Shown here one piece after another: positions 14,061 to 28,461 of a DNA stretch of 33,018 bases. A program made the position numbers and the translations under genes. Below the pieces are notes generated by a model that worked only from the letters and a program-made list of their open reading frames with translations, ran no database searches and was not told where the DNA came from. The stretch comes from an uncultured Gammaproteobacteria bacterium (GTDB taxonomy: Bacteria; Pseudomonadota; Gammaproteobacteria; Arenicellales; JAANXG01). The stretch covers positions 1 through 33,018 of the forward strand of contig CAMYMN010000044.1 in NCBI GenBank assembly GCA_947259395.1, written 5' to 3'. Positions within the stretch are counted from its first letter, which is position 1, and every line of letters begins with the position of its first letter.

Positions 14061-14714
14061 TCAAGGAGTTGCCCGTTTCGGCACCCCGGCAACGGCCTGC
14101 GAGGCACGCCGCCGCCGGTAGCGCACAATCCGGTATCCGAGCAAGATAGACAAGACCAATGCGTAGATCGCCGGCTCCGTGATGTCGGCTTTGACAAGCC
14201 ACAGAAAATGCAGCACGCCGAGGATCGGGACGGCATAAGTCAGGCGATGCAGGCGCTGCCAACGTTTGCCCCCCAATCGTTGCAGCATCCGATTCGTCGA
14301 GGTCGCCGCCAAGGGTATCAGCAGCACAAACGCGGTAAACCCCACCAGGATGTAGAGACGCTCAGCGATGTCCTCGAGGATGAACTGCCACGCGAAGAAC
14401 TGGTCGAGCACGATATACGTCGTGAAATGAAGTAAGGCGTAGAAGAACGCATACAGCCCGAACATGCGCCGCAGGCGAATCAGGGCGTGCCAACCGGTGA
14501 GCTGACGTAATGGGGTGATCGCAAGCGTGATCATCAACATGCGCAGTGTCCAGTCCCCGGTTGTAAAGGTGATCGTTTCGATCGGTTCTGCGCCGAGTGT
14601 GTCGGTAGCGGCGCGCCAGATGAGCAGTGCTGCTGGAATCAGGCAGGCTGTGAACGCGACAGGTTTGACGCGCTTGATCCAGCGCAACTGGATCTCAGGC
14701 GAAGCAGCGGGCAT
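14061..14714 (-). CDS. msrQ: MsrQ, heme membrane subunit of the periplasmic methionine sulfoxide reductase
   Basis: MsrQ (YedZ) is an inner-membrane b-type heme protein that passes quinol-derived electrons to MsrP. The 217 residues hold about six helices. Histidines likely to bind heme occur in the block LRRMFGLYAFFYALLHFTTY and in HRLTYAVPILGVLHFLWL. The ATG at 14714 lies three bases after the msrP stop, so the two genes are translationally coupled; a TTG at 14717 is a weaker choice. The C-terminal tail is basic and presumably cytoplasmic. It is expected to share the msrP promoter, and thus the proposed ECF control. Confidence 0.93.
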   Translation of the reverse strand: MPAASPEIQLRWIKRVKPVAFTACLIPAALLIWRAATDTLGAEPIETITFTTGDWTLRMLMITLAITPLRQLTGWHALIRLRRMFGLYAFFYALLHFTTYIVLDQFFAWQFILEDIAERLYILVGFTAFVLLIPLAATSTNRMLQRLGGKRWQRLHRLTYAVPILGVLHFLWLVKADITEPAIYALVLSILLGYRIVRYRRRRASQAVAGVPKRATP

Positions 14715-14717
14715 CAA

Positions 14718-15686
14718 TCAGAAGTTCTTACTCAGATCCATGCCCTGGTACAGGTGGGCGACCTGCTCAGCATAGCCATTGAACATCAACGTAGGCCGTT
14801 TGAAGAATTCGCCTATGCGGCGTTCCCTGGCCTGGCTCCAGCGGGGGTGGCTGACCTTCGGATTGACGTTGGCGTAGAAACCGTACTCATGGGGCGCCTG
14901 GACCTGCCAGGTATTGACCGGTGGCTGTTCCACGAAGTTGATCTTGACGATGGATTTGATGCTCTTGAATCCGTATTTCCAGGGCACCACCAATCGAATG
15001 GGCGCGCCGTTTTGGCCCGGCAACTCCTCGCCATAGACGCCCACCGCCAGGATGGTCAGCGGATGGATCGCCTCGTCGATGCGCAGTCCTTCCCGGTAGG
15101 GCCAGTCCAATACCGAGCCGAATAACCCGCGCCGCTGACCCGGCATACGCTTGGGGTCATGCAGCGTCTCGAATTCGACATATTTCGCGCGCGAGTTGGG
15201 TTCCAGGGTCTTGATGAAATCACCGAGGGCAAACCCGACCCATGGGACCACCATGGACCACGCCTCGACACAGCGCAGGCGATAGATTCGTTCTTCCAAC
15301 GGGAAGCGTTTAATGAGCTCATCAACGTCATAGACCTTGGGCTTTTTTATTTCACCAGCAACCTCTATGCTCCAAGGGCGGCTCTTGAAGTCCTCCGCCA
15401 GTTGCGCCGGACCCTCCTTATCGGTAGAGAATTCATAAAAATTGTTGTAGCTGGTGACGTCTTTGTAAGGGGTGAGAGACTCTTTAGCGTTGAACCGGCT
15501 CTTCTTGAGTTGATCGAATTTCAGTTTAGCGGAGGCCTCGGGCGTCAGCGCAAATAAGCCTGTCGCCGCCAGGCCCAGCGCTGCCGCGGCGCCGCCCTTT
15601 ATCAACTGCCGGCGACGCCGGAAAACCTCGTAATTCGTGATCTCCGAAGGAATTGTGTCCGCCGGTCTTCTGATAAGCATATTCAA
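14718..15686 (-). CDS. msrP: MsrP, molybdopterin-dependent protein-methionine-sulfoxide reductase
   Basis: MsrP (YedY) reduces methionine sulfoxide in periplasmic proteins. The 322-residue precursor has a Tat signal: an arginine cluster at 23-26 ([10 protein letters not shown]), a hydrophobic stretch, and a likely cut after PEASA (residue 53). The molybdenum ligand is C139 in [44 protein letters not shown] and the C-terminal [20 protein letters not shown] block also match the family. AGGAAA sits eight bases before the ATG. A promoter like those of the bufferin/ECF cluster lies at 15709-15735, and msrQ follows directly. Confidence 0.95.
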
Positions 15687-15708: not shown

Positions 15709-15735
15709 TAGACCAGCAAATCAAACCGAGGTTCC
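15709..15735 (-). promoter_or_regulatory. Putative ECF sigma promoter of msrPQ
   Basis: Reading the minus strand, GGAACC (15735-15730) is followed by 16 bases and GTCTA (15713-15709). This is the same pair and spacing as the two promoters of the bufferin cluster. It lies in the 65-base gap between the thiolase stop and the msrP ATG, with the -10 element 22 bases before that ATG. Confidence 0.65.
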
Positions 15736-15751
15736 CGGCACACTGCCCTGG

Positions 15752-16939
15752 CTACAACCGCTCGAAGATCGCGGCGATACCTTGCCCGCCGCCGATACAC
15801 ATGGATACCAGGGCATAGCGGCCGCCCGTTCGTTGAAGTTCGTAGAGGGCTTTCACCGTAAGGATGCATCCGGTGGCGCCGATGGGGTGGCCGAGGGAGA
15901 TGCCGCTGCCGTTGGGGTTGGTCTTGTCCGCTGGCAGCCCGAGGTCGCGCACCACCGCAAGGGCCTGGGCGGCGAACGCCTCATTGAGTTCGATCACATC
16001 CATGTCGTCGATGCCTAACCCGGCTTTGTCTAACACGATACGTATCGCCGGTACCGGCCCAATGCCCATGTACTTGGGTTCCACGCCGGCGTGCGAGTAG
16101 GCCACCAGCCGCGCCATCGGTTGATGGCCGGCTTTGTCCGCCGTTTCCGCGGCCATCAACACCACCGCCGCCGCGGCGTCGTTGATACCCGATGCATTGC
16201 CGGCAGTGACCGAGCCGTCTTTCTGGAACACCGTGCGCAGCTTTGCCATACCCTCTATCGTGGCATCTGCGCGTATGTGCTCGTCTTGCGCAAACATGGT
16301 GCTGCCCTTGCGGGATTTGATCTCTACCGGCAGGATCTGATCTTTGAAGTAGCCGTTTTTTGTCGCATTGGCGGCGCGTTGATGACTCTCTACCGCCAGG
16401 GCGTCTTGGTCTTCGCGGCTGATGTTCCACTTGGCGGCGACGTTCTCAGCGGTAATGCCCATGTGACAGGAATCGAACGGATCGGTGAGTGCGCCGACCA
16501 TGGCGTCCACGGTTGAGCCATCACCCATGCGCTGGCCCCAACGCATCGCCGGAACGTGATACGGGGCACGGCTCATAGACTCGGCGCCGCCAGCCAGCGC
16601 GGCATCGGCATCACCCAATTGAATGGTCTGGGCGGCGCTGACCACTGCCTGCAGACCGCTGCCACACAAGCGATTCAAGGTGAATGCCGGAGTCTCCACC
16701 GGCAGACCGCCTTCGATGGCCGCATAGCGGGACAAATACATGTCCTTGGTTTCGGTGTGAATAACGTTACCGAACACGCAATGGCCGATTTGATCCGACG
16801 CTGCCCCCGACCGTGACACTGCCTCGCGCACTACCATGGCGCCCAATTCCTTGGGGGCGAAGTCCTTCAGGGAACCGCCATAATCACCGATGGCGGTACG
16901 CACTCCGCTCAACACTACGACATCTCTACCTTCTGACAT
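15752..16939 (-). CDS. bktB: BktB-type beta-ketothiolase (acetyl-CoA acyltransferase)
   Basis: This 395-residue thiolase condenses or cleaves beta-ketoacyl-CoA. The catalytic residues are C92 (NRLCGSGLQA), H351 (SLGHPIGATG) and C381 (SMCIGGGQG). It follows Cupriavidus BktB block by block (SGVRTAIG, GGSLKDFAPKELGA, GHAGVEPKYMGIGPVPA, IAAIFER), more closely than the fatty-acid-oxidation thiolase FadA. A role in short-chain ketoacyl-CoA metabolism is likely, either PHA-like synthesis or degradation; no phaB or phaC lies in the window. The ATG at 16939 has a strong GGAGG eight bases upstream; an in-frame start at 16954 would overlap that site. Confidence 0.9.
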   Translation of the reverse strand: MSEGRDVVVLSGVRTAIGDYGGSLKDFAPKELGAMVVREAVSRSGAASDQIGHCVFGNVIHTETKDMYLSRYAAIEGGLPVETPAFTLNRLCGSGLQAVVSAAQTIQLGDADAALAGGAESMSRAPYHVPAMRWGQRMGDGSTVDAMVGALTDPFDSCHMGITAENVAAKWNISREDQDALAVESHQRAANATKNGYFKDQILPVEIKSRKGSTMFAQDEHIRADATIEGMAKLRTVFQKDGSVTAGNASGINDAAAAVVLMAAETADKAGHQPMARLVAYSHAGVEPKYMGIGPVPAIRIVLDKAGLGIDDMDVIELNEAFAAQALAVVRDLGLPADKTNPNGSGISLGHPIGATGCILTVKALYELQRTGGRYALVSMCIGGGQGIAAIFERL

Positions 16940-17010
16940 GATTTTCTCCTCCAAAAGACGACGTTAGATTGCCAAAATGCCCTGTGGTGGTCCAACGCGG
17001 GGTGCCCATG

Positions 17011-19680
17011 TTAGCCGGTATTGCGCATGCCTGCAGCAATTCCGTTGATGACAATCAACAAGGCGTCGTCGATCCCCGCGTCTACTTGCTCCCGGCTGCG
17101 GTGCAGCAGCTCGACTTGTAACAGATTCAGCGGGTCAATATAAGGATCCCGCACTTCGATGGGGCGGAGCACAAGGGGTTGATGTTCCAGCAACCCGCCG
17201 CGGCCGGCAATCTCCAGTACCACCGCCTTGGTGCTGCCGAAACGTGCGCGCAGCGCTTCACCGAAATCGTGCAGGGCCTGAGGCACCAGGATCTCGTCGT
17301 AGCGCGCGGCGACCTCAGGGTCGCCCTTGGCCAGCACCATCTCTACCAGATCCAGGGTGGTGGTAAAAAACGGCCACTCGCGCTGCATCTGGCGCAACTC
17401 GTTCCCGAGTTTATCGTCCAGCGCGCTGCGCAGCGCCTCACCGATACCCAGCCAGGCCGGTAATAACAAACGGGTTTGCGTCCACGCAAAAACCCAGGGA
17501 ATCGCACGTAAGGTTTCGATGCCGCCTTGCTTGCGGCGGTGCGCAGGGCGGCTGCCGATGTGCAGCTTGCTGAGTTCCTGCTCCGGCGTGGCGGCGCGAA
17601 AGTAATCCACGAATCGCGGTTCCTGTTGCACCGTACGGCGGTAGTTGGCGACCGCGACATCGCTCAAACGATCCATGACGTCACGCCATCTTGGTTGCGG
17701 CGGAGGCGGCGGCGCTAGCGTCGCCTCGAGGTTCGCCGCGGTGTATATGTTCATAGTCCGCTCAGCAATCTCTGGTAGTCCGAATTTGTGTTGGATCACC
17801 TCGCCCTGTTCGGTCACCCGCATCGAGCCGTTCACCGAGCCCGGGGGTTGGGCAAGGATCGCGGCGTAGGTCGGCCCCCCGCCGCGGCTGACTGTGCCGC
17901 CACGGCCATGGAACAATGTGAGGCGCACGCCATGGCCCCGGCACACATCCACCAGGTTTTCCTGGGCCCGGTACAGCGCCCAAGCTGCCGTCAGTTGGCC
18001 GGCGTCTTTGGCGGAATCCGAGTAACCAAGCATGATCTCCTGGCGCCCGTCGATGTGTCGCGCATACCAAGGAATGTCGAACAACTGCGTCATGCAGTCC
18101 GGGGCATCGTTCAACGCCTCGAGACGTTCGAACAACGGCACGACGCGCAACGGTCGCCGTACGCCGAGATCCTTTTGCAAAAGTTCCACTGCCAGCACGT
18201 CCGACGGTCGGCTCGCCAGCGAAATCACGTAGGCGCCCAACGCATCCGATGGGATCTCGCGCAACAGGCGGATGGTGTTCAGTACGTCATGAACGTTGTC
18301 GTCGGCGCTGAGATCTGCGGGCACCAGGGGGCGGCGGTTTTCCAGTTCCCCAATCAAAAACTCGATGCGTTTGGATTCCTCCCAGTCGTTATACGAACCC
18401 AGGCCAATGTACTCGGTGATCGCAGTCATGGCCTCGGTGTGGCGACTCGCCTCCTGACGGATGTCGAGCTTCAACAACGTCACACCGAAGCATGCCAGCC
18501 GGCGCAGGATGTCCACCAGCCGGCCGTCGGCGACCAGACCGGCGCCGCGATCGCGCAGCGAGTGGTAGCACAACAGTAACCGACTTCGCAGTTGCTCGGC
18601 GTCGGTGTAGATCTCACCGGGAGGCGGCTCGCGGTCCTCGAGTTTGGCCTCAATCCATTGCTTGGTGGCATCGAGGCGATGCAGTACGCCGCGCAACAGT
18701 ACGCGATACGGCTCGTGCACGTCGCCCACTTGGGCGCGCAGCGCTTGATTGCAATCGTTCATCGACAACTCGCTGCGCAAGGCATCGATCTCGTCGCGAT
18801 ACAAATGCGCAGCCATCCATCGGGACAACAGGTGGACCTCACGCGTCACCGCCGGTGTCACGTTCGGGTTGCCGTCACGATCACCACCCATCCACGAGGC
18901 AAAATGGATCGGCGTTGCAGTCAACGGCAGCGGCTTGCCGGTAAACGCTCGCAACACCTTGTCGAGCTCACGCATGTAGCTCGGCACCGCATACCACAGA
19001 CTCTGTTCCACCACCGCAAGACCGGAACGCGCCTCATCCACTGGCGTTGGCGCCGTGCGACGTATTTCATCGGTAAACCAGGCCGCAGTAATCTCGCGCT
19101 TTAATTCCTCGACGATGACGGCGTGTGCTTCAGAGTGTTCATCGATGTGATCGCGGCGGTTGAGCGCATCGGCAATGCGGTTGAATTTCTTGAGCAGCGT
19201 GCGGCGGGTGATCTCAGTGGGGTGTGCGGTGAGCACCAACTCGATATCGAGCTGGGTCACGGTTTCGTACAGCGTTTCCGGGGTGATACCGACACTCAAT
19301 AGATGTTCGAACACTAACCGCAGTGAGCCGGACTGCGGTAAGTCGTTGGCGATGTCGGTGCGGCTGCGACGCGCGCGGTGCTGTTGACCGGCGATGTTGG
19401 CGAGATTCAAAAAGAAGCTGAAGGCACGCGCAATATTGCGGATCGTTTCGGTATCCAGCCCGCGTAATTCGTCTTCGAGCACACCGCGGTCGGCGTCCCG
19501 CCCGGCACGGGCGCCCTTAGCGGACAGCCGCACGCGTTCGACTGTGTCATAGAATTCCTTACCAACCTGTTCCTGCAGTATCTCCCCCAACAGACGTCCC
19601 AGCAGGCGTACGTCGTCGCGAAGCGGGAGGTCGATGTCGTCGAACGGTCTTTCAAATTCGGCGTTTTCTGTGTGATCCAT
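17011..19680 (-). CDS. ppc: Phosphoenolpyruvate carboxylase
   Basis: Ppc carboxylates PEP with bicarbonate to oxaloacetate, refilling the TCA cycle. The 889-residue chain is of bacterial family length. Catalytic H153 lies in VLTAHPTEITRRTLL. The glycine- and arginine-rich loop LFHGRGGTVSRGGGP is near residue 590. The C-terminus is the invariant RNTG, and QVELLHRSR precedes it. The usual allosteric control (acetyl-CoA activation, aspartate inhibition) is likely but not shown by sequence. There is no good ribosome-binding site before the ATG at 19680. The gene is divergent from the alpha/beta hydrolase gene. Confidence 0.97.
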   Translation of the reverse strand: MDHTENAEFERPFDDIDLPLRDDVRLLGRLLGEILQEQVGKEFYDTVERVRLSAKGARAGRDADRGVLEDELRGLDTETIRNIARAFSFFLNLANIAGQQHRARRSRTDIANDLPQSGSLRLVFEHLLSVGITPETLYETVTQLDIELVLTAHPTEITRRTLLKKFNRIADALNRRDHIDEHSEAHAVIVEELKREITAAWFTDEIRRTAPTPVDEARSGLAVVEQSLWYAVPSYMRELDKVLRAFTGKPLPLTATPIHFASWMGGDRDGNPNVTPAVTREVHLLSRWMAAHLYRDEIDALRSELSMNDCNQALRAQVGDVHEPYRVLLRGVLHRLDATKQWIEAKLEDREPPPGEIYTDAEQLRSRLLLCYHSLRDRGAGLVADGRLVDILRRLACFGVTLLKLDIRQEASRHTEAMTAITEYIGLGSYNDWEESKRIEFLIGELENRRPLVPADLSADDNVHDVLNTIRLLREIPSDALGAYVISLASRPSDVLAVELLQKDLGVRRPLRVVPLFERLEALNDAPDCMTQLFDIPWYARHIDGRQEIMLGYSDSAKDAGQLTAAWALYRAQENLVDVCRGHGVRLTLFHGRGGTVSRGGGPTYAAILAQPPGSVNGSMRVTEQGEVIQHKFGLPEIAERTMNIYTAANLEATLAPPPPPQPRWRDVMDRLSDVAVANYRRTVQQEPRFVDYFRAATPEQELSKLHIGSRPAHRRKQGGIETLRAIPWVFAWTQTRLLLPAWLGIGEALRSALDDKLGNELRQMQREWPFFTTTLDLVEMVLAKGDPEVAARYDEILVPQALHDFGEALRARFGSTKAVVLEIAGRGGLLEHQPLVLRPIEVRDPYIDPLNLLQVELLHRSREQVDAGIDDALLIVINGIAAGMRNTG

Positions 19681-19788
19681 GGCGGAAGGGACATCTTATC
19701 CTTTATGTTGCGGATGGCCAGAGCCACGCTACTGAAATTCAAGTAGCGGCGCAAGTGCAAGCCTGCGCGGCGACGCCTGGACCACACG

Positions 19789-19812
19789 TATAATGATTCT
19801 ATCTAATCATTA
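19789..19812 (+). promoter_or_regulatory. TATAAT box overlapped by a perfect 22-base palindrome
   Basis: TATAAT (19789-19794) overlaps an inverted repeat with perfect 8-base arms, TAATGATT (19791-19798) and AATCATTA (19805-19812), spaced by six bases. The right arm ends seven bases before the ATG of the hydrolase gene. The layout fits an operator that blocks a promoter, or a hairpin in the leader. No -35 match is visible 17 bases upstream. Confidence 0.5.
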
Positions 19813-19819
19813 CGCGTTC

Positions 19820-20596
19820 ATGACCGTACTGCACTACATCGAACTGGGAGACGGCGAGCCGCTGGTGCTGCTGCACGGTTTGTTTGGCTCCGGCACCAAC
19901 TTGCGCGGTTTGGCCAAGCGTCTGGCTGGCACGCATCGCGTAATACTGGCCGACTTGCGTAATCACGGGAACTCGCCGCACGCGCCGGGCATGACCTACA
20001 TGGACATGGCCGATGATCTGGACGCGTTGTTGACGCATCTTGCGGCTGATAACGCCGATTTTGTTGGCCACAGCATGGGTGGCAAGGCCGCCATGGTCCT
20101 GGCGCTAACGCGGCCGCAGCGCGTGCGCAGGCTGGTGGTGGTCGACGTAGCGCCGGTCGCTTATCCGCACAGCTATGCGGCGCTGATCGGCGCCCTGCGC
20201 GGCGTGGCACTGTCGCGGTTGCGTTCTCGCGGTGACGCGGGCGTCGCGTTGTCAGCGACGGTACTCGACGAGGCGACCCGCATGTTCTTGCTGCAGAATC
20301 TCGTCTCCGAAGAAGGGCGGTTTCGCTGGCGGCTCAACCTTGATGCGCTGGAGCATCACATGGACGCGATTTTGGGATTTCCGCAGCTACCGGCGCATCA
20401 ATTCCAGGGCCCCAGTTTATTTGTTGCCGGCGAGCAATCCGATTACGTGCGTGCCGAACACGAAGCGCAGATCATGGATCTATTTCCGCGAGCGCGGATC
20501 GAGCCGATTGCCGGTGCAGGCCATTGGGTGCATGTCGATAAGCCTCAGGTCCTGTTGGAAACGTTACAGGAATTTTTGAGATCGACGCCGGGATAG
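19820..20596 (+). CDS. Alpha/beta-fold hydrolase, YbfF-like esterase
   Basis: This 258-residue serine hydrolase has the nucleophile S85 in GHSMGG, an oxyanion-hole HGLFGSGTN near residue 19, the DLRNHGNSPH block that is typical of the YbfF group, and a catalytic histidine H235 (GAGHWVHVDKP). YbfF-type enzymes hydrolyse short acyl esters or acyl-CoAs in vitro; the natural substrate is unknown. The ATG at 19820 fits the family start (TVLHYIELGDGEPLVLLHG). An ATG at 19793 would begin inside the TATAAT-palindrome element. The stop codon is one base from the convergent bufC stop codon. Confidence 0.9.
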   Translation: MTVLHYIELGDGEPLVLLHGLFGSGTNLRGLAKRLAGTHRVILADLRNHGNSPHAPGMTYMDMADDLDALLTHLAADNADFVGHSMGGKAAMVLALTRPQRVRRLVVVDVAPVAYPHSYAALIGALRGVALSRLRSRGDAGVALSATVLDEATRMFLLQNLVSEEGRFRWRLNLDALEHHMDAILGFPQLPAHQFQGPSLFVAGEQSDYVRAEHEAQIMDLFPRARIEPIAGAGHWVHVDKPQVLLETLQEFLRSTPG

Positions 20597-20597
20597 T

Positions 20598-21377
20598 TTA
20601 TGTGCCAATCCGGGTGATCAAGCCGTCGGTGATCCATTGCTTGAGTAGCCCGGCGGCGTGGATCGCGACCTCCGACTCGCCCTTCCACTTACACAGCCCT
20701 TCGCACAGGGCGGCAAAGTTGTCGCCGCTTTGAGTTTGATCCAGCATCCAGGACTCGTCGTCAGCCAACGAGCGGTAAAACTGCCGCAGCTGCTGGCGCC
20801 AGATGATCCACGGCACCGGCTGATCGCTCCGTTCGGGCGCAGGCGGATCGCGGTCCTCGTCGGCCGCACTTCGCATCGCCGCCACGTTCCACGCCAATTC
20901 CAGATGCCGCAGCGAAGGATGCAAGCCGAAGGTCAAGTGCGGCCACTGGTCCGGCGGGATGGTAGCCATGTCTTCGACGGTCACCGGAGACACGTCACGT
21001 TCGTCGAACGCCTCCATGAGCTTCCATTCAAACTCGGCCAACTCGGCGAGGTAAGGATGTTCGCGGTAGGGCGCGGTCGCACCGAGAAATTCGGCCAGCC
21101 GGTCCCCGTACCAGCGAACGGAGTAATGATACGGCGTATGGGTATCGATGTAACTGCGGCACAGACGGTCGAACTCATCGTCGCCCAGCAGTGTGTACAG
21201 CGCGCCGTAACTGTCCTGCAGGCACTCGATAAGACGCAGGCGATAGGCGTCGGCATAGATACCGATGCGCTGTTTGACGCCCACCCGCTCGGTGGCCACG
21301 ATTTTATCGTCGAACTCGTCACCCAGGGTCAAAATGGCGCTCTGGAATTGCGATTGCAGGGACGAGATGCGTTTCAC
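20598..21377 (-). CDS. bufC: BufC, DUF2063 partner of the MNIO enzyme
   Basis: This 259-residue protein belongs to the DUF2063/HvfC/BufC family. The N-terminal helical domain (about 8-105) includes RIGIYADAYRLRLIECLQ and YGALYTLLGDDEFDRLC; the C-terminal half is more variable. In characterised systems such partners bring the precursor peptide to the DUF692 oxidase. It starts with GTG at 21377, which overlaps the bufB TGA by two bases (GTGA), so translation is coupled. It is transcribed from the bufB promoter. The peptide substrate, bufA2, lies on the other side of bufB on the opposite strand. Confidence 0.88.
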   Translation of the reverse strand: MKRISSLQSQFQSAILTLGDEFDDKIVATERVGVKQRIGIYADAYRLRLIECLQDSYGALYTLLGDDEFDRLCRSYIDTHTPYHYSVRWYGDRLAEFLGATAPYREHPYLAELAEFEWKLMEAFDERDVSPVTVEDMATIPPDQWPHLTFGLHPSLRHLELAWNVAAMRSAADEDRDPPAPERSDQPVPWIIWRQQLRQFYRSLADDESWMLDQTQSGDNFAALCEGLCKWKGESEVAIHAAGLLKQWITDGLITRIGT

Positions 21378-22228
21378 GCTGCCATTTCCTTCAAGATAGG
21401 TTGTGCAATATTGCGCGCCCGGTCCAGCTCCGGCAGCAATTCGTTCAGCGGCGGGATGTGATCGTCACGCTCGATCATGATCGACACCGGACCGAAACGC
21501 CGCACCGCGTCGGCATAAAGCTCCCACACCGGGTCGATGACCGGGTGATCGTGGCTGTCGATGATGTAATCACCGCAATTGGTGTGACCGGCGAGATGAA
21601 ACTGACCCACGCGTTCCACCGGTATGAAATTTAAGTACTCGTAGGGATCGAATTCGTGATTGAAGGCGCTGACATAGATGTTGTTGATATCGAGCAGGAT
21701 GTAACAATTCGCGCGTTCGGCAATCCCGGCAATAAATTCCCATTCTGACATCGCCGAGTCTTTGTACGTCAGGTAACTGGAGACATTCTCGATCAGCATC
21801 GGGCGCTCCATGAAATCCTGTACTTGACGCACTCGGCCGGCGACATGCTCGATCGTTTCCTCAGTGTAGGGCAGGGGCAACAAATCGTGGATGTTCTTGC
21901 CATCGAGCCCGGTCCAGCACAAATGATCGGAGAACCATGCCGGCTGGACGCGATCCGCGAGTTGTTTGAGTTGCTCGAGATAGTTCCAGTTCAACGGGTC
22001 GCTGCTGCCGATCGACATCGACACGCCATGCATGATCATCGGGTAGTGTTCACGGATCGCGTCGAGGTAATACAGCGGCTTTCCACCGGCGACCAGATAG
22101 TTTTCGGAAAGGATCTCGAACCAATCGATGTTGGAAGGTAACTCCGCCAACACGGTTTCGTAGTGGCTGGTGCGCAAACCCAGTCCGAAACCCAGGAACG
22201 GCAATTTTTTCACAGCCGGTTTTTGCAT
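21374..22228 (-). CDS. bufB: BufB, DUF692 multinuclear non-heme iron oxidase (MNIO)
   Basis: This 284-residue TIM-barrel enzyme of the DUF692/MNIO family modifies cysteines of a precursor peptide; in bufferins the known product is a thiooxazole that binds copper. Counted from the ATG at 22228, likely metal-site residues are H67 (MHGVSMSIGS), H102 (SDHLCW), E147 (LIENVSSY), D180 and H191 (LLDINNIYVSAFNH), H211/H215 (HLAGH), D224-H228 (DSHDH) and E253 (MIERDDH). The N-terminus LGFGLGLRTSHY is typical. A TTG at 22261 also opens the frame, but it would lie only about 14 bases after the promoter's -10 element. bufC overlaps the 3' end. Confidence 0.93.
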   Translation of the reverse strand: MQKPAVKKLPFLGFGLGLRTSHYETVLAELPSNIDWFEILSENYLVAGGKPLYYLDAIREHYPMIMHGVSMSIGSSDPLNWNYLEQLKQLADRVQPAWFSDHLCWTGLDGKNIHDLLPLPYTEETIEHVAGRVRQVQDFMERPMLIENVSSYLTYKDSAMSEWEFIAGIAERANCYILLDINNIYVSAFNHEFDPYEYLNFIPVERVGQFHLAGHTNCGDYIIDSHDHPVIDPVWELYADAVRRFGPVSIMIERDDHIPPLNELLPELDRARNIAQPILKEMAA

Positions 22229-22274
22229 AGTGGCGAACAGAAGGACCTTATCATTATTCAATCGAAAACATGGT

Positions 22275-22302
22275 TAAGACACGCTGGTGTGCACTTGGTT
22301 CC
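22275..22302 (-). promoter_or_regulatory. Putative ECF sigma promoter of bufBC
   Basis: On the minus strand GGAACC (22302-22297), 16 bases and GTCTTA (22280-22275) form an ECF-type -35/-10 pair. It lies 46 bases before the bufB ATG at 22228 and is divergent from the matching promoter of bufA2. Confidence 0.7.
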
Positions 22303-22384
22303 CGGAGACGGGTGATGAATCAACGTGCAAATGGCGCGATTTTGTTTTTCCGGGATCAATTAACCATACATTAATTGTGATATT

Positions 22385-22411
22385 GGAACCATCAATTTCC
22401 GGTGCGGTCTA
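22385..22411 (+). promoter_or_regulatory. Putative ECF sigma promoter of bufA2
   Basis: GGAACC (22385-22390), 16 bases and GTCTA (22407-22411) form an ECF-type pair with the same layout as those of bufBC and msrPQ. It implies an untranslated leader of roughly 70 bases before the bufA2 ATG. Confidence 0.7.
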
Positions 22412-22489
22412 CATCGGCCATGACCCATGTAGTGGTCGTACGAACACCCGGTAATTCGGGATTATTAAAAACTTGAGGAGACTATCGAA

Positions 22490-22741
22490 ATGAATATGAA
22501 GAAAGCTTCCGGCTTTGCCCTGGCCACCGCCGCCGCCGCCATGTTTGCTGCCACCGCGCCGCTGACCGCTTCAGCGCACGAAGAAGCCAAAGTAAACTGC
22601 TTTAACGTCAACTCCTGCAAGGGAATGGGCAGCTGTAAGACCGCCAACAACGCATGTAAGGGCCAAAACAGCTGTAAAGGCACCGGCTTTGTTGCGGTAA
22701 GCGCCGAGACGTGCAAGGCGATTGGAGGAAAAACGGGCTAA
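22490..22741 (+). CDS. bufA2: BufA2-type bufferin precursor (periplasmic copper-binding RiPP)
   Basis: This 83-residue precursor has a Sec signal peptide ([17 protein letters not shown] onward) with a likely cut after ASA at residue 29, leaving a mature peptide of about 54 residues. That part holds six cysteines, C37, C43, C49, C56, C62 and C75, in repeated CKG/CKT units ([18 protein letters not shown]). This matches the six-to-twelve-cysteine bufferin group, in which a DUF692 enzyme turns cysteines into thiooxazoles and the product sequesters copper in the periplasm. Modification of these residues is inferred. AGGAG lies nine bases before the ATG at 22490, which supports that start over the ATG at 22496. 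A strong terminator follows, so it has its own transcript. Its strand is opposite to bufBC. Confidence 0.9.
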
Positions 22742-22771
22742 GCCGCTACAGCATTCTCCCAAAAGCACGAC

Positions 22772-22799
22772 AAAACGGGGCGCTGCGGCGCCCCGTTTT
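22772..22799 (+). terminator. Strong hairpin after bufA2
   Basis: AAAACGGGGCGC and GCGCCCCGTTTT form a perfect 12-base stem around a TGCG loop, ending in TTTT. It lies 31 bases after the bufA2 stop codon. The A-tract on the left arm makes it potentially bidirectional. It separates the peptide gene from the sigma gene. Confidence 0.85.
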
Positions 22800-22833
22800 C
22801 TATTTGCTTGAAGAAAACTCCAAAACCAATCAA

Positions 22834-22862
22834 TAACATTTCTATAACATTTCAATAACATT
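22834..22862. repeat. Three TAACATT repeats at exact 11-base period
   Basis: TAACATT occurs at 22834-22840, 22845-22851 and 22856-22862, each 11 bases from the last, with T/A-rich 4-base linkers. Read on the minus strand this is ATGTTAT plus 4 bases, repeated. A 7+4 direct repeat is the layout bound by PhoB/OmpR-type regulators. It lies 37 bases upstream of the sigma gene's ECF promoter. Confidence 0.55.
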
Positions 22863-22898
22863 ATCGACACAATTGACCGTGCAGCCGATCGGATCCTG

Positions 22899-22926
22899 GG
22901 AACCCACGGTAACGAGTGATGGTCTG
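22899..22926 (+). promoter_or_regulatory. Putative autoregulated ECF promoter of the sigma gene
   Basis: GGAACC (22899-22904), 17 bases and GTCTG (22922-22926) resemble the bufA2, bufBC and msrPQ promoters, with a spacer one base longer. The pair lies 41 bases before the GTG at 22968. The longer spacer and altered last base suggest a weaker promoter. Confidence 0.55.
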
Positions 22927-22967: not shown

Positions 22968-23540
22968 GTGTTCAACGGAAAGAAATTTACGGTGGATCCG
23001 GTCTCAGTAGGTATGGGTAGATCGAAGCGCGAGAAGTTTGAGCTGTTGTTGGAAGGGTTGATGGACGACCTGTACCGCTACGCCTACTGGGTGTGCCGCG
23101 ACCGTGTTCAGGCCGAGGAACTCGTGCAGGAAACCTACCTTCGCGCGTGGAAGGCAATCGGCAGCCTGCGCGATGCAGATTCGGCGAAGAGTTGGCTGTT
23201 TACGATTTGTCGCCGTGAATACGCGCGCCAGTTCGAACGCAAGCGCTTGCAGATGCAGGATGTCGAAGACATCGGCGAACTGCCAGGCGCCAAGGTCGCA
23301 TTCGATACCAGTACCGAGGCGTTCGTGTTGCGGCGCGCCTTGGCCACGCTCTCCGACGATTACCGCGACCCCTTGGTGCTGCAGGTCCTCGGTGGTTTTA
23401 GCTGCGAAGAAATCGCGGGCGTGCTGGGGATCAGCAGCAGCGCGGTGATGACCAGGCTGTTTCGCGCACGCAAGCAGATGCGCGAGTTGCTAACCGACGA
23501 TGAATCCGATTCCCGGTGCGTCACCGAGGTGCGAGCATGA
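22968..23540 (+). CDS. ECF-family RNA polymerase sigma factor
   Basis: This is a 190-residue group IV sigma factor. Region 2 covers roughly residues 29-85 (DDLYRYAYWVCRDRVQAEELVQETYLRAWKAI appears as two adjacent helices, then WLFTICRRE). Region 4, near 122-172, ends in a helix-turn-helix (SCEEIAGVLGISSSAVMTRLFRARKQ). It directs RNA polymerase to a small set of promoters; the GGAACC/GTCT pairs in this window are its likely targets. The GTG at 22968 has AAGAAA five bases upstream. An ATG at 23013, just before GRSKREKFELLLEG, gives a 175-residue form that may fit the family better. The stop overlaps the anti-sigma start as ATGA. Confidence 0.92.
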   Translation: MFNGKKFTVDPVSVGMGRSKREKFELLLEGLMDDLYRYAYWVCRDRVQAEELVQETYLRAWKAIGSLRDADSAKSWLFTICRREYARQFERKRLQMQDVEDIGELPGAKVAFDTSTEAFVLRRALATLSDDYRDPLVLQVLGGFSCEEIAGVLGISSSAVMTRLFRARKQMRELLTDDESDSRCVTEVRA

Positions 23541-24253
23541 ACTGTTTAGAATTTCGCAGGATCTGTCTGAGCGATCCTTACACCAGTGCTGCAGACTTTG
23601 CGGCGCATCGGCTCGAATGCCACGAATGCACACGCTTCGTCGACAGCGTCACTGCATTCGACAAGAAACTGCTCGACGCGATGCAAGTACCGGTTCCGGA
23701 GGATCTCGCGACGCGCGTGAAACTCCGCCAGGTCATTGGCGAAGAACACGCGCGGCGAGTACGTCCGTGGCAATGGGCGTTGGCGGCGAGTATCTTTGTC
23801 AGCGTTGCGCTCGGTGGATTTTTAGGCCTACAGGTTTATTCCACCAACCTGTACATCGCTCAGCTACAGGCGTCGGTGATCGATCATGTCAACAACGAAC
23901 CGGATTTCATCTCGGTGCAAGGTAAGGTGCCCTCGGATAAATTCGCGCGCGTGATGGCGGCGTTTGGCGCCGAGGTGGTCAACAAGGATATCGAATCGTT
24001 GATTGCCCATGCCTATGTATGTGTCATGGATAAAAGACCCATTGCCCACATTTTTGCCGGTAACGGCGGTCAGGTGACGGTGTTGTACGTCACCGGAAAA
24101 CGGATTGGCGCGGAAACGCCATTCAAAGATGATAGCCACCAGGGTGTGTTGATCCCGGCAGGAGGCGGCAACCTCGTCGTCATTGCGCCGAAAGGCGAGC
24201 AAATCGAACCGCTGGTCACAAAGTTGAAACAATCCATTCGTTGGAGTATCTAA
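23537..24253 (+). CDS. Membrane anti-sigma factor, DUF3379 type
   Basis: This 238-residue protein starts at an ATG overlapping the sigma stop (ATGA). The cytoplasmic N-terminus carries the zinc anti-sigma motif H24-x3-C28-x2-C31 (HRLECHEC). One membrane helix spans about residues 78-100 (WQWALAASIFVSVALGGFLG). The periplasmic domain (101-238) matches the DUF3379 family that accompanies ECF sigmas. It should hold the sigma inactive until a periplasmic signal releases it. The periplasmic part contains one cysteine (AYVCVMDKRP) and nearby histidines, which could sense metal or redox state; that is speculation. A terminator follows at 24294-24322. Confidence 0.9.
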   Translation: MNCLEFRRICLSDPYTSAADFAAHRLECHECTRFVDSVTAFDKKLLDAMQVPVPEDLATRVKLRQVIGEEHARRVRPWQWALAASIFVSVALGGFLGLQVYSTNLYIAQLQASVIDHVNNEPDFISVQGKVPSDKFARVMAAFGAEVVNKDIESLIAHAYVCVMDKRPIAHIFAGNGGQVTVLYVTGKRIGAETPFKDDSHQGVLIPAGGGNLVVIAPKGEQIEPLVTKLKQSIRWSI

Positions 24254-24535: not shown

Positions 24536-25702
24536 GTGGCTAGAAAACCCATTGCTAGTTGTTTGGCCTTCTGTTCATGGCTAGTTGCGGCAATTTCACT
24601 TGCCGGTGAGACCAGTGACAGCGGTCTGATGGACCAGCTTACGATCTCGCTGCCGAACACGGGGATCTACGCGTTGGTGGATCATGCGCAGCGTCACGAA
24701 CGAGGCAAGGATGGTAAAGCGCGCGATTTTTCCGGCAATGTTTTTGGTTTCCGCAGCATTCACCTCAAGCTGCAGAATGCTACTCTGGATAACCGGCTGA
24801 TCGATGGGACCCTATGGGTGCTGGCGAGCTATCAATTGAATCATTGTTACCAACCGGATCTGTCCGGTGAGTTGAAGTTCGGACAGCACGAGATTTCGCT
24901 ACCGGAAAAGCGCACCTTCTCGAATTGCTCCGGGATGCGGTATGTGTCCGGTAGTGATCACCTTTCGGTTTCCAAGGAAGTGAAAGTGGGGGACCGGTCC
25001 CTAGTAGAAATTTCCAGGGCCTCACCGGTGGCGCTCGCGTTCGATTTTTCCGCTGACCCGATTCCGGTCAATGCCAGGGACCTGTCTTTAAAGGTGATCT
25101 ACCGGGGTAGGTTGGGAACAACGAAATCGGTTGCTTCGTCACTGGGTGCGGAAGACGCCTTTGCCATCGGTGTGCGCGATATTTCGGAGCCGAGTTATTT
25201 GTCGATTCGCAACTGGACCGATGTGCAGACCAACGGCAAGTTCGAAATCAAGCGCCAGAAATCGGGCTTTCCTAATGTCAAGGATTTCAGATTCAAAGTA
25301 AACGGTATTGAATTATTCCGTATTGCGAGCGTTCCGGGTTATGCATACGCGCGAATTGTGTATCTTTCGGATTACGCACGAAACGACAACGTGCAGGTTG
25401 AATGGCGCGACGGCAACAATCGTGCGGTGCGTAAGGCGGGCGTGTTGGCGCCATCGATGATTCAATGGGTGAACGGCGGCCGGCATCACGGTAACAGAAC
25501 GTTTGCCTATCAGCAGTTCTGGGGGGTGCGCAACACCTACCATTCCAAGCAAGTGCTGCTGCGGCGCGACGATATGCTGATCGCCGGAGACCCGCAGCGG
25601 ATCAACTGGGAAAAGCGCAAAGATTTCGCGCTGCTGCAACATCCCGATCCGATCGCGGTTATTTTATGTGTGCCCGTTTCCTCGTATTGTGCCAGCCATT
25701 GA
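24536..25702 (+). CDS. Secreted protein of unknown function
   Basis: This is a 388-residue protein from the GTG at 24536; the next in-frame ATG would remove the signal peptide. Residues 1-23 (MARKPIASCLAFCSWLVAAI and on) look like a Sec signal with a likely cut near SLA. The rest is rich in alternating hydrophobic and polar residues, suggesting beta-sandwich folds, with no membrane helix or repeat. Aromatic and Arg/His-rich segments occur late (WVNGGRHHGNRTFAYQQFWG). Cysteines are few: two in the signal, one in HCYQPD, one in SNCSGM, and two near the C-terminus (ILCVPVSSYC), which may form disulfides. I recognise no family. It follows a terminator and so is not part of the sigma operon. Confidence 0.75.
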   Translation: MARKPIASCLAFCSWLVAAISLAGETSDSGLMDQLTISLPNTGIYALVDHAQRHERGKDGKARDFSGNVFGFRSIHLKLQNATLDNRLIDGTLWVLASYQLNHCYQPDLSGELKFGQHEISLPEKRTFSNCSGMRYVSGSDHLSVSKEVKVGDRSLVEISRASPVALAFDFSADPIPVNARDLSLKVIYRGRLGTTKSVASSLGAEDAFAIGVRDISEPSYLSIRNWTDVQTNGKFEIKRQKSGFPNVKDFRFKVNGIELFRIASVPGYAYARIVYLSDYARNDNVQVEWRDGNNRAVRKAGVLAPSMIQWVNGGRHHGNRTFAYQQFWGVRNTYHSKQVLLRRDDMLIAGDPQRINWEKRKDFALLQHPDPIAVILCVPVSSYCASH

Positions 25703-27376: not shown

Positions 27377-27814
27377 TTATTGTATTAAACGAAGTGGGGC
27401 ATTGACCTTGAGGCTTGCGCCATTGTCCAGGGTGAGCACCACGGTCACGTTCTCGCCCAATTGTAGCGGGACATTCGGCATCATCATCATGAGATGCCGG
27501 TCGTTGGGCGCCAATACCAGTCTCCCTCCCGCTGGAACCAGAAAGTGAGGTTGTTTGCGCATGCGCGCGACATCATCTTCGATTACGGTGCGATGCAGCT
27601 CGATCATACCGAATTGCGGACTCTCCGCGGCGGTTATTTTTGTGTCTTCGGGCCCGGTGTTCTCCACCGTCATATAACCCGCGAGCACCATGGCTCCCGG
27701 TGGTGCCGCCCGTATCCACGCGTCGGTGACGCGCAACATGCTCGTTTGCGACTGTGCCGTGCACGTGAGTAGTGCGACGCATATGAGGGCGAGGAATCTG
27801 CATGTACGCATCAT
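27377..27814 (-). CDS. Periplasmic copper chaperone PCu(A)C
   Basis: This 145-residue exported protein has a signal peptide of about 23 residues and a cupredoxin-like DUF461 fold. The copper motif is exact: H74, ten residues, M85, 21 residues, H107-x-M109 (ELHRTV, ARMRKQ, RHLMMM). It binds Cu(I) and, with SCO proteins, helps load the CuA or CuB centres of heme-copper oxidases; it may also simply hold periplasmic copper. The ATG at 27814 overlaps the TGA of the SCO gene (ATGA), so the two are co-translated. Confidence 0.93.
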   Translation of the reverse strand: MMRTCRFLALICVALLTCTAQSQTSMLRVTDAWIRAAPPGAMVLAGYMTVENTGPEDTKITAAESPQFGMIELHRTVIEDDVARMRKQPHFLVPAGGRLVLAPNDRHLMMMMPNVPLQLGENVTVVLTLDNGASLKVNAPLRLIQ

Positions 27815-28461
27815 TCCAGTTTTCTGATCTTCTTGAAGTCGTCGGCCAAGCGCTGCGCTTCATGGGGAGCGCCGAACAGCGCCCGCATCGCGCCCTTTGG
27901 ACTGAACAGCAGCACCGACGCACTGTGGTCCACAAGATAATCTTGGCCCTGTTTTTGTTCGACACGAACGTGTAATACTCCCAATTGTTTGGTCACCCGA
28001 TTGATCTCGTCTTCGTGGCCGGTGACGCCGACAAAGGCCTTGTTGAAGTAGGGCACATATTTTGCCAGTTGCTGAACAGTGTCACGCCGTGGATCCACGG
28101 ACACGAACACCACCTGAACGTTCGCATGCGCGTCGGGATACTCGGCTAATATGCGATCCATCTGCGCCAGGGTGTGCAGGGTGGTGGGGCAAATGTCCGG
28201 GCAATGGGTGTAACCGAAGAACAAGAACGACCACTTTCCTTTGAGTGAGTCCAAGGTAAACGGCTCATTGCGATGGCTGTTCAAGCGGAAATCCGAGATC
28301 GTCTTGGGGGGATTGAGGACCGTAGCGGAAATCTCATCGAGTGACGGCTTGCGGTTGAGCACTTGGTTACCCAACCAGACCCCCGCGGTAAGCGACAACA
28401 CCACCGCGATCACAATGAGTATTCGGTTGCTTTGACTTGATTTCGACTCTGAGGTATCCAT
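27811..28461 (-). CDS. SCO1/SenC family copper chaperone
   Basis: This 216-residue protein has one N-terminal membrane anchor (about residues 14-33) and a periplasmic thioredoxin-like domain. The copper ligands are C87 and C91 (CPDICP) and H179 (VDHSAS). SCO proteins deliver copper to, or reduce the thiols of, the CuA site of cytochrome c oxidase. The downstream PCuAC gene overlaps it, a classic partner arrangement. No oxidase subunit lies in the window. The gene is divergent from truD. Confidence 0.94.
   Translation of the reverse strand: MDTSESKSSQSNRILIVIAVVLSLTAGVWLGNQVLNRKPSLDEISATVLNPPKTISDFRLNSHRNEPFTLDSLKGKWSFLFFGYTHCPDICPTTLHTLAQMDRILAEYPDAHANVQVVFVSVDPRRDTVQQLAKYVPYFNKAFVGVTGHEDEINRVTKQLGVLHVRVEQKQGQDYLVDHSASVLLFSPKGAMRALFGAPHEAQRLADDFKKIRKLE

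Follow-up and report, generated by a model that had tools for sequence, protein, structure and literature searches.

A predicted ECF sigma regulon joining a bufferin cluster to msrPQ in a gammaproteobacterium of the Arenicellales

The NrsF/DUF1109 anti-sigma factors of the ECF16 group have six membrane helices, Azospira SigF is paired with an anti-sigma factor of the NrsF family, and the gig operon of Cupriavidus is of the bufferin type. Promoters read by ECF sigma factors are laid out as AAC and GTC cores with a gap of 16–17 bases.

Several described sigma factors govern bufferin-type operons, methionine-sulfoxide reductases or both. SigF of Caulobacter crescentus (ECF16) controls the DUF2282-DUF692-DUF2063 operons CC2907-2905 and CC3254-3257 together with CC2748 (YedY/MsrP), is autoregulated and metal-responsive, and acts at promoters reading GTAACC-N16-CGAA (PMC3511200). 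There, the promoter of CC2748 is predicted, not mapped, the dichromate induction of this gene is only partly SigF-dependent, and cysteines 131 and 181 of the anti-sigma factor NrsF (DUF1109) are studied (PMC3511200). In Brucella, BcrS-AbcS (ECF16) governs an MsrPQ-type operon that is induced by hypochlorite and encodes a methionine-rich peptide; according to the same paper, which also names Azospira SigF, three or more further ECF16 regulons include Msr genes (PMC8315932). Sinorhizobium meliloti RpoE7, likewise ECF16, adjoins and activates a DUF692-DUF2063 operon and activates itself (PMC6180224). The ECF13-type pair RpoE2-HrsE of Haemophilus influenzae joins MsrAB and MtsZ with a DoxX/UPF0276/DUF2063 operon, HrsE being a putative cytoplasmic anti-sigma factor of 67 aa (PMC7907618). 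The Cupriavidus gig operon is divergent from rpoQ-rsqA, which encode an ECF sigma factor and a predicted membrane anti-sigma factor, and is induced by copper and gold (PMC10304878). A survey of bufferins, in its accessible part, places sigma and NrsF genes in Buf1 but not Buf2 clusters; since C. vibrioides is credited there with a Buf2 as well, control of a Buf2 by Caulobacter SigF may already exist (PMC12452194).

Genes and predicted promoters of the window

The window, a stretch of 33,018 nucleotides from an uncultured gammaproteobacterium of the Arenicellales, carries msrPQ, a bufferin cluster and an ECF sigma/anti-sigma pair (Table 1). All parts of a BufA2 cluster are present (precursor, MNIO maturase and DUF2063 partner), with bufA2 divergent from bufBC and not in bufABC order. 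The BufA2 model found no match in 14 control genomes, and bufC scores 38.3 bits against NF050145, below its cut-off of 142. The adjacent genes msrP and msrQ both exceed curated cut-offs. The sigma factor combines regions 2 and 4 with an anti-sigma factor in the next gene, the arrangement by which an ECF regulon is recognized; the two genes overlap where the sigma gene ends, and the anti-sigma gene probably starts at ATG 23537. Among the best 80 of at least 418 loci, the top-ranking relatives with a name come, for the sigma factor, from Arenicellales, Arenicella and other gammaproteobacterial assemblies, and the lowest-ranking ones from other phyla. At E 0.001, neither Pfam nor NCBIfam matches the 388-aa ORF downstream of the anti-sigma gene (24536-25702, plus strand). 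Some 3.5 kb beyond the anti-sigma gene, an ORF on the minus strand (27811-28461) resembles a SCO1/SenC-type copper chaperone (CPDICP motif, by eye), and no site upstream of it ranks among the window's 12 best matrix matches.

Table 1 Annotated genes and predicted regulatory features of the window
Feature	Position	Strand	Evidence
msrQ, haem-binding membrane subunit, directly 3' of msrP	14061..14717	-	NCBIfam NF003831 196.3 bits, cut-off 130
msrP, periplasmic methionine-sulfoxide reductase catalytic subunit	14718..15686	-	NCBIfam NF003767 473.3 bits, cut-off 207
Predicted ECF promoter of msrPQ, GGAACC-N16-GTCT(AG)	15710..15735	-	matrix score 15.2, conserved in G005 and G006
bufC, DUF2063 partner protein	20598..21377	-	PF09836 69.5 bits, cut-off 27.2
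bufB, MNIO bufferin maturase	21374..22261	-	NF050167 382.7 bits, cut-off 310; PF05114
Predicted ECF promoter of bufBC, GGAACC-N16-GTCT(TA)	22277..22302	-	GGAAC/GTC core in 8/8 linked-cluster genomes
Predicted ECF promoter of bufA2, GGAACC-N16-GTCT(AC)	22385..22410	+	exact motif in 8/8 linked-cluster genomes
bufA2, 83-aa bufferin precursor	22490..22741	+	NF050166 88.7 bits, cut-off 60
Probable terminator in the bufA2/sigma gap, G+C-rich inverted repeat then T-run	22772..22799	+	read by eye
Predicted autoregulatory ECF promoter of the sigma gene, GGAACC-N17-GTCT(GT)	22899..22925	+	sites in 7/11 genomes judged
ECF sigma factor, regions 2 and 4	22968..23540	+	PF04542, PF08281; NF009170 (PRK12517) 202.6 bits, cut-off 197
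Anti-sigma factor, DUF3379 family	23516..24253	+	PF11859 133.5 bits, cut-off 33.2

Four matches to GGAACC-N14-19-GTCT occur on the two strands of the window, whereas 100 dinucleotide shuffles average 0.23 and none of them reaches four. All four are intergenic and point at msrP, bufBC, bufA2 and the sigma gene from promoter position, the msrP site ending 23 bases from TTG 15686 and 29 from ATG 15680. An earlier note on this DNA had described these sites; its spacers, letters and coordinates all proved correct on re-reading, as did its account of intergenic, gene-facing placement at promoter distance. We consider it probable, chiefly from the conservation described below, that a single sigma factor controls itself, bufA2, bufBC and msrPQ through GGAACC-N16/17-GTCT and would be released from the DUF3379 anti-sigma factor by a periplasmic signal.

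Occurrence and conservation of the motif

The genome of the window is a draft assembly, 86.56% complete, and the family-level set comprised 13 genomes including it (G000). Base composition predicts 0.15 exact N16/17 matches per window and about 19 per 4.1-Mb genome. The own genome contains 10, four of them clustered in the window. With spacers of 15–18 bases, the same genome contains 19 exact matches versus 40 for a reversed control, and 13 of the 15 lying outside the window fall within ORFs of at least 110 aa; G001–G007 together contain 97 N16/17 matches versus 166 reversed. We rejected the exact motif as a genome-wide regulon finder because its matches are rarer than the reversed control in both comparisons: by itself, so short a motif as GGAACC/GTCT does not delimit a regulon. 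Among 107 distinct N16/17 sites, 74 lie within ORFs of at least 130 aa and 15 of the other 33 are regulon sites reported here, a split that is rough since the ORF caller is crude; it placed the G006 msrP, G003 bufA2 and G004 bufBC sites within over-long or antisense ORFs. Taken literally, the motif is genome-wide as frequent inside genes as between them, an outcome that the earlier note had set against a regulon, but a 10-base motif gives the same by chance. The informative tests are clustering and conservation, and both are positive. Sites before an acetolactate-synthase-like gene (G000, G002, G005; the G000 match adjoins rplQ) were discarded, the match lying within a GGAACCCC...GGGGTCT inverted repeat that is likely, by eye, to be a terminator.

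A sigma-linked cluster is found in eight of the genomes (G000–G007). The exact motif stands upstream of bufA2 in every one. Upstream of bufBC, a GGAAC/GTC site is likewise present in all eight, as the exact 10-base motif in three and as a variant in five: the -10 core reads GTCA or GTCC in three genomes and the -35 element ends in A in three, one genome having both changes. We trained a position matrix on 22 bufA2, bufBC and sigma-gene sites, which were chosen with relaxed patterns and with relatives unweighted, leaving out the msrP sites. As background we used 245,152 bases of family loci that had been retrieved by means other than the motif, the cluster loci still being among them; an earlier background of loci fetched by the motif itself was dropped as biased. 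Of the 27 places in this background that score at least 15, 21 are trained sites, three are the sites before msrP, one is a sigma-gene site not used in training (G012) and the other two lie within ORFs.

The place of msrPQ in the regulon has to be weighed against a narrower reading, in which the sigma factor acts on its own gene, bufA2 and bufBC, whereas msrPQ is under some other control and the site before msrP arose by chance or is a relic. Exact 10-base matches are indeed common by chance genome-wide, the msrP site has the lowest score of the four in the window (15.2), and msrP was not found in five of the eight cluster genomes (G001–G004 and G007; drafts, 74–97% complete), so that the msrP link is not universal even within the genus. 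MsrP is present in 8 of the 17 genomes searched. All three that also have bufA2 (G000, G005 and G006) carry a site 20–21 bases before the msrP start, and the motif that the earlier note proposed to look for in relatives recurs in a second genus. The matrix, blind to msrP, scores these sites at 15.2, 16.1 and 19.3, respectively, a level reached by just two non-regulon places in the 245,152 bases. Between G000 and G006, which belongs to another genus, the place and distance of the site are kept and its core is identical at 10/10 positions, compared with 3/16 in the spacer, which is background identity; the thiolase gene lies about 4 kb further from the site in G006. The msrP site has therefore been conserved while its surroundings changed. 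None of the five msrP genes in genomes without bufA2 has a site (best scores 1.4–6.9), and this association, 3/3 versus 0/5 against a mixed control, gives p = 0.018 by Fisher's exact test with kinship ignored; G000 and G005 are near neighbours, and the three sites represent two independent lineages. The control is mixed in that G009 lacks a close sigma factor, the G009 and G011 genes show 43–44% identity, and in G008 and G012 the msrP gene looks broken; the cleanest case is G010, which has a sigma gene with its own site and an msrP gene 74% identical, with no msrP site. On this evidence, we regard a chance or relic msrP site as unlikely. At loci L071 (G005), L256 (G008) and L257 (G012) of these drafts, the msrP matches are split in two or contain a stop, through assembly errors or decay.

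Inclusion of msrPQ under the neighbouring sigma factor further presupposes that this sigma factor reads the sites. Seven of the 11 sigma genes judged carry the motif (G000, G003, G004, G008, G010, G011 and G012), which suggests that it is tied to the neighbouring sigma factor; the G010 and G011 sites read GAAACC. No sigma-gene site was found in G001, G002, G006 and G007 (best matrix scores 0.5–5.9), before a second sigma copy in G004 (L043, C43:4820-5347, 78% identical; best 2.5) or before the sigma genes of four Arenicella-type genomes that are more distant (-3.2 to 4.5). G005, whose contig stops after bufA2, and G009 yielded distant sigma matches only. Another regulator or ECF sigma factor might bind the four sites instead: binding by the neighbouring sigma factor is a prediction from sequence, four of the 11 sigma genes judged lack a site, and the own genome encodes two further ECF sigma matches (33–35% identity), so that another sigma factor could read the sites. 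We hold this to be improbable, because the motif precedes the other seven sigma genes, four of them in genomes without bufA2 (G008, G010, G011 and G012), which is the usual mark of ECF autoregulation, and because the cores and their gap have the generally known layout of an ECF promoter.

Bufferin loci that are not linked to the sigma gene provide a further comparison. Second bufA2 copies in G001 and G006 have no upstream site (best scores 5.0 and 0.5), nor do the loci of two further bufferin-like precursors in the own genome, which score 28.4 and 24.7 bits against the BufA2 cut-off of 60 and are BufA1-like by eye. These absences, like the genes, the sites and their conservation, are direct readings, and because the unlinked loci lack the site, the motif marks the sigma-linked cluster and not bufferins in general. 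By eye, the second bufA2 loci (L261 2060-6133 in G001; L262 4134-6290 in G006) adjoin genes resembling response regulators and histidine kinases, which suggests two-component-controlled paralogues; the G001 locus also has bufB- and bufC-like genes.

The DUF3379 anti-sigma factor

PF11859 is the sole Pfam family assigned to the anti-sigma factor at E 0.001, and a literature search on DUF3379 found nothing. We aligned (i) 14 sequences, namely the window protein, nine from the order and four chosen others, and (ii) 33 sequences, the window protein and 32 of the 37 complete homologues at sigma-relative loci (best 80 of at least 418). H24-x3-C28-x2-C31, a zinc-type N-terminus, is invariant in the smaller set, as is H117, and the H-x3-C-x2-C pattern is lost in part of the larger set. 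With this motif, the N-terminal domain is of the zinc type and may bind zinc; the anti-sigma profile matches RsiW weakly (E 0.029, residues 18–65). C162 and H171 are invariant in 33/33 sequences and lie on successive strands of the predicted structure, and this residue pair may sense copper or oxidants. The structure model is confident (pLDDT 91.4, pTM 0.61) and contains one long helix, 77–119, that could cross the membrane. Foldseek gave no PDB match at E 0.001; the best matches, to the MucA/MucB complex (E 0.011) and to RseB (E 0.027), have TM-scores of at most 0.27 and are a hint only.

Pairs of sigma and DUF3379 genes also stand beside bufB-like genes at four of seven Psychromonas loci, in an Ectothiorhodospiraceae assembly (L137) and in one more MAG (L128), the loci with such neighbours being L110, L115, L118, L130, L137 and L128. 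The Psychromonas precursors are BufA1-like by eye, and the intergenic stretches inspected at the Psychromonas, L137 and L128 loci contain no GGAACC-type site.

It is conceivable, although we lean slightly against it, that DUF3379 proteins form an undescribed class of envelope stress sensor (zinc-type domain, membrane helix and periplasmic invariant Cys/His) whose sigma partners, lying outside ECF16 and ECF13, came independently to link MNIO copper-binding peptides to methionine-sulfoxide repair. If so, the coupling of copper peptides and methionine repair would be a rule, reached by convergence, of how the periplasm is defended against copper and oxidants.

The proposed regulon and described systems

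In the regulon that we propose, the membrane anti-sigma factor, encoded right after the sigma gene, would hold the sigma factor. A signal in the periplasm would act on the periplasmic domain of the anti-sigma factor, in which the invariant Cys162 and His171 are predicted to be located, and would free the sigma factor. The most likely candidates are Cu(I) in excess, an oxidant (for example hypochlorite) or both, although the identity given for the signal is guesswork. We infer this release mechanism, as well as the membrane topology. The free sigma factor would recognize GGAACC-N16/17-GTCT and initiate four transcripts at the predicted sites, its own and those of bufA2, bufBC and msrPQ, and the cell would make a copper-sequestering peptide and its maturase together with the repair of oxidised periplasmic methionines. 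The earlier prediction that one sigma factor induces copper sequestration and methionine repair is supported, as a prediction, by the clustering of the sites, their conservation and the msrP-blind matrix.

Two further proteins are leads for extra regulon members, and we keep them as such because sites are present in some genomes, not all. A 73-aa protein with no Pfam or NCBIfam match (own genome L264, C15:24157-24375; L263, L265-L270) is present in exactly 8 of the 13 family genomes, those with bufA2. Promoter-like sites stand about 60 bases before its gene in G007 (GGAACC, 18.3), G000 (15.0) and G004 (15.4; both GAAACC), a weaker one in G002 (10.2) and none in G001, G003, G005 and G006. A search of five genomes for GAAACC-N16-GTCTA showed this pattern in two of them 73–82 bases before the gene of a protein, about 165 aa long, that is probably secreted (L288, own genome C42:21256-21282; L286, G004), the loci of 30 of the 35 matches having been inspected.

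If true, the proposal would place another kind of ECF system beside ECF16 and ECF13 as one that ties MNIO-made copper-binding peptides to methionine repair. It would suggest that both jobs are physiologically joined, perhaps in that damage by copper and damage by oxidants fall on the same periplasmic thioethers, and it points to a specific residue pair, Cys162/His171, in a protein family of unknown function. A Buf2 cluster would gain a linked sigma factor, of which the accessible part of the published survey reports none (PMC12452194).

One might take the system for a gammaproteobacterial copy of the SigF/NrsF (ECF16) regulon of Caulobacter, given that the targets predicted here, MNIO bufferin-type operons and YedY/MsrP, are also its targets (PMC3511200), but this is very improbable, as the anti-sigma factor is a DUF3379 protein with one possible membrane helix and not NrsF/DUF1109, the promoter reads GGAACC-N16/17-GTCT and not GTAACC-N16-CGAA, and the best NCBIfam sigma model is PRK12517, the separation from ECF16 resting on anti-sigma factor, promoter and model.

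The regulon proposed here, under its own sigma factor and DUF3379 anti-sigma factor, compares with the described systems as follows. The Azospira precedent cited in the earlier note holds in that ECF control of an MsrPQ-type operon is known, but Caulobacter SigF is closer (PMC3511200). Because the Caulobacter regulon already joins both, the pairing of bufferin and MsrP under one sigma factor is not new, and the link is less novel than the earlier note implied (PMC3511200). As in Brucella BcrS and Azospira SigF, an MsrPQ-type operon is under ECF control (here predicted); Brucella has a methionine-rich peptide in place of the bufferin and an NrsF-family anti-sigma factor (PMC8315932). H. influenzae RpoE2 similarly links methionine-sulfoxide reductases and a DUF2063 operon, with MsrAB/MtsZ there and MsrPQ here (PMC7907618). 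S. meliloti RpoE7 differs in its TGTAAC/CGAA-type promoter, and the accessible part of its description mentions no MsrP target (PMC6180224). Cupriavidus gig differs in that the corresponding text shows neither RpoQ dependence nor an MsrP link (PMC10304878). In a literature search by title and abstract start on bufferin, DUF692 or MsrP with sigma factors, none of the papers listed concerned a DUF3379 or Arenicellales system; what is new here is the sigma factor, its DUF3379 anti-sigma factor, the promoter and the linkage of a sigma factor to a BufA2 cluster. Like Caulobacter SigF, the present system joins one ECF sigma factor to bufferin-type operons and MsrP, here as predicted from the promoter motif; unlike it, it combines a DUF3379 anti-sigma factor and GGAACC-N16/17-GTCT with a BufA2 precursor divergent from bufBC (PMC3511200).
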